Assembly: GCF_025215075.1 (NCBI RefSeq)
Contig: NZ_JAOBTH010000026.1
Span: forward strand, 248,001 to 312,000
DNA length: 64,000 nucleotides
DNA from: Tenacibaculum haliotis
GTDB lineage: Bacteria; Bacteroidota; Bacteroidia; Flavobacteriales; Flavobacteriaceae
Direction of reading: 5' to 3'
Under the pieces are notes generated by a model. That model did no database searches and had not been told where the DNA came from. It saw only the letters and a program-made list of their open reading frames with translations. This document shows positions 40,612-43,074 of the stretch, piece by piece. A program made the position numbers and the translations under genes. Positions within the stretch are counted from its first letter, which is position 1. The number at the start of each line of letters is the position of its first letter.

Positions 40612-41115
40612 TTATTCTAAAGTTAACTTCTTTTTAAAAATCAATTGATTAAAAATCATTAAAACAGCCATTCCGAATGAAAGAGTCATAAATAACCCCG
40701 AAATCATAATAATATATTTCATCCAGGTAATTCCTGTCCACATTAAATAAATTCCACCAAAGGTGCTAATTATTGACACAAAAGGTTCAATCATTAAAAA
40801 CAACTTTAGCCTTTTATTAATGCTTGTTGTAGCTAAAATAATTGCCAATAAAAAGAAAATTACAGAGAGTGATAAAATATGATTATGCACCATTGTTTTG
40901 ATTTCTCCTGCCGATTTTTTAAACTTCATTGTAGTAGCCTCTTCTACATCTTCGTTTCCTAAATAACGCTCTTCTATTCCTGTTGGATTAGAATTTGTTG
41001 TATCTCTAACAAATGATATTCCGCCAAAAAAACCAATACTTAAGGTACAAACAAAAGCGAGTATTAATAATTTTATTTCTTTCGGAAATTGATGAATTAC
41101 ACCGTGAACTTGCAT
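40612..41115 (-). CDS. Four-helix membrane protein coupled to the FMN-binding protein
   Basis: A 167-residue integral membrane protein I do not recognise. Hydrophobic segments lie at about 13-36, 80-97, 103-127 and 132-158. A periplasmic loop (37-70) is acidic (GIEERYLGNEDVEEA). His77 and His79 (MVHNHILSLS) sit at the membrane entry of helix 2, as heme or quinone ligands often do, but no heme family is evident. Its ATG abuts the stop of the flavin-binding gene with no gap, so the two are co-translated and probably act as partners, perhaps passing electrons from the membrane to the exported flavoprotein (inference). Confidence 0.7.
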   Translation of the reverse strand: MQVHGVIHQFPKEIKLLILAFVCTLSIGFFGGISFVRDTTNSNPTGIEERYLGNEDVEEATTMKFKKSAGEIKTMVHNHILSLSVIFFLLAIILATTSINKRLKLFLMIEPFVSIISTFGGIYLMWTGITWMKYIIMISGLFMTLSFGMAVLMIFNQLIFKKKLTLE

Positions 41116-41652
41116 TTACAATACTTTATTTTTATGAAGGATTTCTAAATTTTGTAGAAAAGTATTCACTGCAATTGTCATTGAAGAAGCTGAAATTGTT
41201 GCTCCTGATATTGCCATAATATCTTTTTCGTATTTTAAAGTATCTTTTGATGTTTTGCCTATAAATTGCTTTAACCAACGCTTACTACCAATTTCGCCGC
41301 CATAATCTTCGCGGTATATTAATACCTTGGTTTTTATCACAATTAATTGTTTATCTAATAAAACTAAGTAATCAAATTCATCTGTTTTACTTGGTGCTTT
41401 ATCAATAAAAACATACCCTAAAACGTTATCTTCAATTGTTATTTTAAATAAATTTTCTTCAGAAATTTTACTCTTTAATTTATTGTTAATTGCTTTTGGA
41501 ACAATTATTTTACTTAGCGAAAAGTCTTCAACATTAAATGTTTTTTTAATTTCCTTATCAACTTTCTTCTTCAGCTTTTTAGGAATACTAAAAGATAGCA
41601 ACCCTAAGGAAGTAACAATAAATAAGAAAAGTAATAAAATACGAGTTTTCAT
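41116..41652 (-). CDS. Exported FMN-binding domain protein
   Basis: A 178-residue protein with an N-terminal signal or anchor helix (RILLLFLFIVTSLGLLSF) and an FMN-binding domain like NqrC/RnfG: the strand GYVFIDKAPSK, the GGEIGSKRWLKQFIGK segment, and the motif S149-GAT-ISASSMT. Thr152 in SGAT is where ApbE attaches FMN covalently in related proteins. The usual acidic residue three before the Ser is Met146 here, while Asp144 is five before it. The domain should face the periplasm. A putative operator lies between the promoter -33 and -7 boxes. Confidence 0.85.
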   Translation of the reverse strand: MKTRILLLFLFIVTSLGLLSFSIPKKLKKKVDKEIKKTFNVEDFSLSKIIVPKAINNKLKSKISEENLFKITIEDNVLGYVFIDKAPSKTDEFDYLVLLDKQLIVIKTKVLIYREDYGGEIGSKRWLKQFIGKTSKDTLKYEKDIMAISGATISASSMTIAVNTFLQNLEILHKNKVL

Positions 41653-41656
41653 ATTG

Positions 41657-41691
41657 CAAAAATATTAGAATTAGTCTAAATAAAAAACAAA
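41657..41691 (-). promoter_or_regulatory. Promoter of the FMN-binding gene with embedded operator
   Basis: Minus strand: a TTTG-type -33 box, a 23-base spacer, and TATTTTTG at 41664-41657, four bases before the ATG. Within the spacer and -7 lies the motif TTTATTTAGACTAATTCTAA (41684-41665), a close match to the motif copies around the porin gene. A bound repressor here would block RNA polymerase. Confidence 0.55.
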
Positions 41692-41755
41692 AACCGAACC
41701 AAATTATAAAAACTTGATTCGATTATTGCAAAAAATAACAAACTTCTAATACAAA

Positions 41756-42940
41756 TTAGAACCAAACACCAAACCCTAAGTTTAATTGCTTGATTGTTTG
41801 ACTACCGTCTATTGCATTGTTTTTAAATTGATAATCTGCTTTAAATGCAGCACCTGGTGCAACTTTATAAGTTAAACCAAACGTTAATTCATTACGATCG
41901 TATGCTAAATTTTTAGCCAATCCACCATCAGTTGAAGCATGTGTATTGTAATCTTCGTAGCGTGCAAAAGCAAATAATTGTTGTTTTTTATCTTGTGGTA
42001 ATAAATTATATGCAGTTTCTACATACCATCCTTGTAAAGCGCTTCCTAAATCTACAGTACTTCCTGAAACAGTACTGTAATATTCGTTATATTCCTTACT
42101 ATCAGAAATACTTGCGTGAATAAACTGACCACGAGCTGTAAAACGTTGGTATGCATAACGAGCATCAAAACCTACCATTGCAATACCTACATCAGAACCA
42201 TCAATATTCTCTATAGCCTGTTCCGATTGAGTTCTTCCAAAATACCCTGATAATCCTAAACGTAAACCTGGTACTCCGTAATAATCTACCTTTCCTGAGA
42301 AGTTTACATTATTCATCATAGATTCAGCTCCTTTTTGACGACCGTTTCTAAAACCATTTTTACCGCCTAAAAATTTACCATTATTATCAGATACAAAGCC
42401 ATTAAACATATATGCTTGGTAACGTAAAGATGCTTCATCCCATCTACCAGAAATACCTAAACCAATTTCTCTCCAAGTAGAAGGCACAATAGATTTATCC
42501 ATACTTGGTCTTTCAACACCGTTAAAAGTAGTTGGTTCGTGATATTCATTTACAATACCCATTGGTACTAACATTAAACCTGCTCTTAAGTTTAAATTAT
42601 CTGTTAATGTATACTGTAAAAAAGCTTGTTCTATGTATACTTCTTTTACGTGTTCAAACTCAATTTCAGTAATAAATTGTGTGCGTTCGTTAAATTTATA
42701 TCCTAATAACATAACCATTCTATGCACATCTAACATGGCATTTTGTCCTGTCGCTCTATTGTAATGAACCTCTGCATAACCACCAACAGTTAAACCTTTT
42801 TGGGTTAAATTAGAAGATAAGATACGTTGTGCTGCATTTTGCTGACTTTGTGGATTCGTAGGAATACTATCTTGCGGAGCCGATTGCGCTGTTACAAATA
42901 ATGATGCAGTTAATAGTACTGCAAAAAACACTTTTTTCAT
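41756..42940 (-). CDS. Porin of the phosphate-selective O/P type
   Basis: A 394-residue outer-membrane beta-barrel with a signal peptide (MKKVFFAVLLTASLFVTAQ), a short N-terminal Gln/Asn-rich linker, and strands ending in the aromatic C-terminus LNLGFGVWF. Segments such as GYAEVHYNRATG, LRAGLMLVPMGIVNEYHEPTTFNGVERP and GLGISGRW match the OprP/OprO-like porins found in Bacteroidota. The ligand is not determinable. Its promoter is flanked by three copies of the palindromic motif also found in front of the FMN-binding gene. Confidence 0.88.
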   Translation of the reverse strand: MKKVFFAVLLTASLFVTAQSAPQDSIPTNPQSQQNAAQRILSSNLTQKGLTVGGYAEVHYNRATGQNAMLDVHRMVMLLGYKFNERTQFITEIEFEHVKEVYIEQAFLQYTLTDNLNLRAGLMLVPMGIVNEYHEPTTFNGVERPSMDKSIVPSTWREIGLGISGRWDEASLRYQAYMFNGFVSDNNGKFLGGKNGFRNGRQKGAESMMNNVNFSGKVDYYGVPGLRLGLSGYFGRTQSEQAIENIDGSDVGIAMVGFDARYAYQRFTARGQFIHASISDSKEYNEYYSTVSGSTVDLGSALQGWYVETAYNLLPQDKKQQLFAFARYEDYNTHASTDGGLAKNLAYDRNELTFGLTYKVAPGAAFKADYQFKNNAIDGSQTIKQLNLGFGVWF

Positions 42941-42941
42941 C

Positions 42942-42967
42942 TTTATTTAGATTAATTTTAAATAATT
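42942..42967 (-). promoter_or_regulatory. Operator-like site in the porin leader
   Basis: On the plus strand TTTATTTAGATTAATTTTAA followed by ATAATT. The outer arms TTATTTA and TAAATAA are palindromic. It starts two bases before the porin ATG and lies downstream of the predicted transcription start. Confidence 0.5.
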
Positions 42968-42983
42968 AATTGTTTTACGGGTG

Positions 42984-43014
42984 CAAATGTAAAAGAGTTA
43001 ATTAATTTAACAAA
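42984..43014 (-). promoter_or_regulatory. Porin promoter
   Basis: Minus strand TTTG (43014-43011), a 19-base spacer and TACATTTG (42991-42984), an excellent Bacteroidota -33/-7 pair. Confidence 0.65.
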
Positions 43015-43074
43015 GTTTATTAAGATTTATTTTAAATAAACTTTAACACTTTATCTAAAATAAATCTTAATAAC
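43012..43074. promoter_or_regulatory. Two head-to-head operator copies upstream of the porin promoter
   Basis: Plus-strand copy 43015-43041 and minus-strand copy 43074-43049 share TTATTAAGATTTATTTTA followed by R-ATAAA. Because they face each other, TTAAGATTTATTTTA (43020-43034) and its complement (43056-43070) form a 15-bp inverted repeat with a 21-base spacer. AAAGTTTATT (43012-43021) and AATAAACTTT (43035-43044) form a second, shorter one. It overlaps the -33 box edge. Confidence 0.55.

Follow-up and report, generated by a model that had tools for sequence, protein, structure and literature searches.

Iron uptake in Bacteroidota has been described mainly in terms of TonB receptors, hemophores and PepSY proteins. 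Among the known systems, PepSY-like/DUF2271 clusters combine a flavinylated periplasmic protein with a membrane protein, often together with ApbE, and their Fur repression and links to iron uptake have been reported (Meheust et al., 2021, PMC8238504). Here we describe a similar three-gene module, which encodes a porin, a flavin mononucleotide (FMN)-binding protein and a four-transmembrane (4-TM) protein of the family PF27139. The module was found in Tenacibaculum haliotis (assembly GCF_025215075.1, 2.98 Mb, 99.93% complete), in a stretch of 64,000 nucleotides (nt) of contig NZ_JAOBTH010000026.1 (positions 248,001 to 312,000), called the window below. The porin, FMN and 4-TM genes form one conserved unit. 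As judged from promoter sequences, this unit is very likely under Fur control, and it likely has a role in iron acquisition.

Compared with the PepSY-like/DUF2271 clusters, one of which is present in the source genome itself with Fur-box-like sites, the module has an FMN_bind protein in place of DUF2271, PF27139 in place of PepSY_TM and the NAD-binding domain, and an additional porin. The FMN protein is similar to RnfG/NqrC in sequence, fold and flavinylation-type motif; however, no other Rnf/Nqr subunits were seen beside the module, and by Pfam its membrane partner shows no relation to NqrB/RnfD. The DUF4405/FezC cytochromes likewise feature a multi-helix membrane partner with conserved histidines, and the heme sites of FezC are proposed to arise by dimerisation (PMC11334425). 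In the 4-TM protein, by contrast, two histidines are two residues apart in one helix, and there is no Pfam match to DUF4405. Finally, P19/FTR1 clusters contain an FMN-binding protein within an iron-uptake cluster, as proposed here for the module, the published cases being mostly Gram-positive (PMC8238504). Neither P19 nor FTR1 was among the Pfam-scanned neighbours of the module, the search being confined to those neighbours, and the membrane partner is a different one.

Gene order and conservation of the module

The three genes are transcribed from the minus strand in the order porin, FMN gene, 4-TM gene. The first gene (41756-42940) encodes an outer-membrane Porin_O_P-like protein of 394 amino acids (aa) that matches PF07396 at 27.7 bits (E 2e-6; cut-off 20.9). 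After 103 bp it is followed by the gene of the exported FMN-binding protein (41116-41652; 178 aa), which has an N-terminal hydrophobic helix and an RnfG/NqrC-like fold and matches PF04205 (FMN_bind) at 24.8 bits (cut-off 22). The gene of its predicted partner, the four-helix 4-TM protein (40612-41115; 167 aa), starts immediately after the FMN stop codon with zero gap. These coordinates agree with the adjacency on one strand and the zero-gap pair described in the first-pass annotation, made from the sequence alone. The same annotation recognised no family for the 4-TM protein. Indeed, this protein had no match in the Pfam and NCBIfam profile scan of the window proteins, but its homologues do belong to a family, as all 120 among the matches listed carry the precomputed annotation PF27139. 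The closest named relatives of the protein come from Tenacibaculum.

We read 64 flavobacterial loci (35 named and 29 from a survey of family genomes), 62 of them distinct after accounting for two duplicates (L056/L112 and L074/L115). The FMN gene adjoins the 4-TM gene in 62/62 distinct loci, including L102, where the FMN frame is open but has no ATG and hence was missed by the open reading frame (ORF) caller. The porin gene is beside the pair in 59/62 loci; in L080 and L100 the upstream sequence is too short to judge its presence. A 4-TM match at E<=0.001 was found in 113 of 299 Flavobacteriaceae genomes, six of which have weak matches alone. The four long-protein matches examined, two of them second matches in genomes with a true gene, look like efflux pumps.

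The module is not limited to this family. Among 395 genomes sampled across Bacteroidota, 37 genomes from ten families have the 4-TM gene, 32 of them outside Flavobacteriaceae. We read 20 of these 32, 9-13 kb each. In all 20, the FMN gene directly neighbours the 4-TM gene (with the order reversed in L174), and in 18 a porin was identified by profile; in L174, a 370-aa protein without a Pfam match replaces it. Many FMN-4-TM gene pairs overlap by 1-4 bases. Thus, the adjacency is far from rare in relatives, and synteny both in Flavobacteriaceae and in nine further families supports the suggestion that the genes serve one function.

Fur boxes at the porin and FMN-gene promoters

The first-pass annotation had noted matching AT-rich palindromes in the promoters of the porin and the FMN gene and suggested metal control. 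Both promoters do carry the palindrome, whose full 21-bp form is TATTTAGAATNATTCTAAATA. It contains the published Riemerella anatipestifer Fur box, ATTTAGAATTATTCTAAAT, which was predicted from regulated promoters, four of which were gel-shifted (PMC5609570). At the sequence level, metal control is therefore borne out, with Fur rather than DtxR as the probable regulator. In the window, five sites match TATTTAGAATNATTCTAAATA at 16/20 or better (average 0.89 and maximum 5 in 200 shuffles), and two match at 17/20 or better (shuffle average 0.085, maximum 2). This module accounts for four of these five sites. In the whole genome, there are 15 distinct sites with at most three mismatches, compared with two for the reversed control, so the full motif is not scattered at random.

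The candidate porin promoter (42984-43014, minus strand) was read from the sequence against the Bacteroidetes promoter consensus and consists of TTTG (43011-43014), a 19-nt spacer and TACATTTG (42984-42991). Two Fur-box matches flank it on both sides, one just upstream of the -33 element (43018-43038, 17/20) and the other beside the start codon (42944-42964, 18/20). The upstream box is what had earlier been listed as a variant of the motif. A box of at least 17/20 is present at the porin promoter in 34/34 named loci, while dinucleotide shuffles average 13.3, and in 33/34 loci a second box is present, the pair usually lying 96-117 bp and 24-55 bp upstream of the start codon. By contrast, with the same threshold of at least 17/20 in fixed 220-bp windows, control promoters had a box in 1/141 other genes, 1/30 IMPDH, 0/31 HMGL and 0/17 5'-nucleotidase genes, and 0/35 4-TM starts (the IMPDH and HMGL labels were assigned by eye). 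Both exceptions are one site, in the intergenic region of L085 between IMPDH and an imelysin-like gene (by eye). In distant Bacteroidota, the flavobacterial box was found at p<=0.02 in 12 of the 17 loci with enough upstream sequence, among them a perfect 20/20 match in L160. L162 and L164 have no porin box but carry one ahead of the FbpA gene, which itself lies upstream of the porin (scored without the shuffle test).

The FMN gene has a weak candidate promoter (41657-41690, minus strand; TTG at 41688-41690, a 23-nt spacer and TATTTTTG at 41657-41664), read in the same way, with its own Fur box (41662-41682, 16/20). This box had been placed exactly between the -33 and -7 elements. It does lie between TTG and TATTTTTG, but the spacer is longer than usual, and 3 nt of the box extend into the second element. 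A separate FMN-gene box is present in 10/10 named Tenacibaculum loci and was not found in the same-genus survey locus L054; outside the genus, it was seen, weakly, in 1/24 named loci (L092) and 1/28 survey loci (L067), that is, in 2/52. Being nearly confined to Tenacibaculum, it looks like a later addition. In the window, boxes are present at both genes, but the broadly conserved control is that of the two boxes at the porin promoter.

Some observations weigh against the assignment to Fur. No enrichment was seen for truncated versions of the motif: with at most two mismatches allowed, the loose 15-mer TTAGANTNANTCTAA occurs 11 times in the window versus 14 expected, and with at most one, the 16-mer TTTAGANTNANTCTAA has 25 strand hits in the genome versus 38 for the reversed control. 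In the Riemerella table, several boxes match the consensus poorly, including that of the gel-shifted sprT (PMC5609570), and among the distant loci examined L159, L173 and L174 have no box.

The genome contains three FUR-family genes. In the best FUR homologue (contig C25, L122:1435-1884), the CxxC pair carried by the usual zinc-binding Fur is absent when read by eye. Its gene precedes a purA-like gene (by eye), as does the single Fur gene of F. psychrophilum. A third Fur-box-like site at the module (43052-43072, 16/20) forms an inverted pair with the box at 43018-43038, about 13 bp apart, and has a counterpart in 2/34 named loci, L083 and L085. In L085 (10415-12486), the inserted imelysin-like gene (by eye) next to IMPDH shares with it a Fur-box-like site of 18/20. 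One of the genome sites, C25:61163, falls within a gene and is likely a chance match.

Predicted flavinylation and membrane partner

The FMN protein is predicted to be a substrate of ApbE. Its predicted flavinylation site is Ser149-Gly-Ala-Thr152 (41197-41208, minus strand), in which Gly, Ala and Thr are invariant in 18/18 FMN sequences from across the phylum. The protein has a weak match to the RnfG family and a PDB profile match to RnfG 9eri (E 3.6e-4). Its model has a predicted local distance difference test score (pLDDT) of 81.5, lower near the SGAT loop, and in Foldseek the top matches are RnfG/NqrC with template modelling (TM) scores of 0.38-0.52 (best E 1.5e-4, at about 0.47).

There is one ApbE gene in the source genome. 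Among the 32 genomes from other families, 15, representing nine genera, have ApbE no more than 2.5 kb away from the 4-TM gene, and no further ApbE was found in 14 of the 15; six module-linked cases were confirmed with Pfam. Such proximity, where found, would tie ApbE to this FMN protein. All 76 checked genomes that carry the 4-TM gene (44 out of 113 in the family, plus the 32 from other families) have ApbE, and its presence is uninformative in Flavobacteriaceae because it was found in every family genome checked.

The 4-TM family is large, comprising 2418 homologous sequence clusters, and a literature search found no paper on PF27139. The AlphaFold model of the protein (pLDDT 88.6) has long helices at residues 12-39, 69-95, 101-127 and 132-159. 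His77-Asn-His79 (the HxH motif; 40879-40887, minus strand) lies near one end of the second long helix, consistent with the earlier remark on two histidines at a helix entry, and both histidines are invariant, in 103/103 and 20/20 aligned homologues. Glu110, followed by Pro111 in the third long helix, is conserved in 103/103 and 19/20 sequences. Loop charges suggest that both termini are cytoplasmic, which would place HxH at the periplasmic side.

A Pfam scan of 20 diverse members at E<=1 gave scattered weak matches to 18 families. Neither PepSY_TM (PF03929) nor the NapH, MsrQ, DsbD, NqrB/RnfD or DUF4405 domains were among them. By these Pfam comparisons, the family appears to fall outside the published classes of flavinylation-linked membrane proteins.

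Possible role in ferric reduction and alternatives

Gene context in some relatives points to iron. In L160, a gene upstream of the porin has its own box and encodes a ferric-iron-binding protein of FbpA type, which matches an iron-binding protein of solved structure at E 4.5e-91; L162 and L164, from one genus, encode an FbpA-similar protein at the matching position. In L155, DUF6607, FMN and 4-TM genes stand opposite genes for HmuY, DUF6686 and a TonB receptor. The source genome has a comparable locus (C22:91000-103000, L042) with a TonB receptor and HmuY divergent from DUF6607, ankyrin-like, DUF2271 and PepSY reductase genes (by Pfam) and two Fur-box-like sites in between. As DUF6607, on which no paper was found, accompanies DUF2271 and the PepSY reductase there, the FMN-4-TM pair of L155 appears, by analogy, to occupy the place of the published pair of flavinylated protein and membrane reductase. 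The electron-transfer or uptake function suggested in the first-pass annotation is thus supported by the ApbE, FbpA and HmuY/TonB contexts.

From the FbpA, hmuY/TonB and DUF6607/PepSY-like contexts, we infer ferric reduction for iron uptake. On balance, we somewhat favour the view that the Fur-box module is a ferric-reduction unit for iron starvation, in which the porin would admit ferric complexes, the FMN protein would reduce them and the 4-TM protein would supply electrons. Fur with iron would repress the porin promoter, and low iron would derepress it. Small ferric complexes would then pass through the porin. ApbE would attach FMN covalently to Thr152, and the flavinylated protein would reduce ferric iron in the periplasm, with the 4-TM protein either oxidising menaquinol or relaying electrons to the FMN domain via an HxH-bound cofactor. 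Fe(II) would enter by FeoB, and in some relatives the FbpA protein would retain Fe(III) until it is reduced. A single clear FeoB copy (a 702-aa frame) is present in the source genome; ten weaker PF02421 matches (E 5e-15 or worse) were taken as other GTPases. A broader proposal, which we hold tentatively and with some doubt, is that PF27139 represents an undescribed class of membrane electron-transfer partners for ApbE-flavinylated proteins, centred on HxH, and that together with the porin it provides a Fur-controlled, TonB-independent route of ferric reduction across Bacteroidota.

Several findings speak against ferric reduction by this module, or at least weaken the case. ApbE is away from the module in 17/32 genomes from other families and is also present in 37/37 genomes without a 4-TM match, hence it is non-specific. 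The fold search with the 4-TM model gave no significant match, its profile showed no similarity to the PepSY reductase of the genome, and its conserved histidines are only two, so an electron route through it is putative. The informative contexts are few: FbpA in 3/20 distant loci (two of one genus) and hmuY in 1/20. The porin is absent from L155, where the DUF6607 gene stands in its place, and no porin was found within 7 kb upstream in G113 (L055/L181). There is no 4-TM match in 186/299 Flavobacteriaceae genomes or in two genomes of the same genus (G383 and G597), hence the module is dispensable. A literature search found no expression data for this locus.

The 4-TM protein could instead be an inner-membrane iron permease, with HxH as the entry and Glu110-Pro111 in a helix, loaded by the FMN protein as its reductase, in which case the module alone would carry iron from the exterior into the cytoplasm independently of TonB. 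The invariant HxH and nearly invariant Glu110 fit this, as do the FbpA-type proteins in L160, L162 and L164, where no permease was found in the five other flanking genes scanned (besides ApbE). Still, we consider a permease unlikely: four helices would be a small number for a transporter that is not oligomeric, no transporter family matches convincingly (the best is MMPL, in one of 20 members, E 0.44), the genome already has FeoB, and the constant pairing with the FMN gene fits an electron partner equally well.

The remaining alternatives keep electron transfer but change its purpose. In one, the flavin protein would replace a heme protein under iron limitation in an unrelated periplasmic redox task, the porin serving general uptake. 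Flavin/cytochrome exchange is discussed by Meheust et al. (2021, PMC8238504), and some Fur-box-like sites in the genome lie near genes identified by eye as nqrA, sdh and those of a cytochrome complex. However, the placement of the module with acquisition genes (FbpA or hmuY/TonB) in some relatives makes such iron sparing quite improbable. Even more doubtful is heme use, in which the electrons would go to periplasmic heme handling, such as heme iron reduction, after HmuY/TonB uptake. It would fit the arrangement in L155, the DUF6607 gene with DUF2271/PepSY in the hmu-type locus of the source genome and the Fur box before hemA (by eye), but the hmuY context is limited to one of 20 distant loci, and the porin in most loci and FbpA in three do not suggest heme.

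If ferric reduction is indeed the function, the module would add an iron-reduction route to the TonB receptors, hemophores and PepSY proteins, and the orphan family PF27139 would obtain a function. The two-gene pair would make it testable how electrons reach flavinylated proteins without a known membrane partner, and the double-box porin promoter would serve as an iron-stress reporter in marine flavobacteria.

Other Fur-box-like sites of the genome have diverse neighbours, identified by eye unless stated otherwise. Among these are a TonB receptor accompanied by a partner protein and, at C23:63616, hemA with an AraC-type regulator (by Pfam). The sites by nqrA, sdh and the cytochrome complex are C29:192540, C29:303677 and C29:169942, which suggests that the predicted Fur-box regulon reaches iron-rich respiratory complexes too. 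In G113, where the porin is missing, there is an 80-aa Cys-rich ORF on the opposite strand (L181:6131-6373). Finally, the Fur-box-like site at C21:75739 (L047) lies between a Dps-like gene and two paired genes, the last of which encodes a protein with below-cut-off matches of the MbnH/MauG di-heme type.

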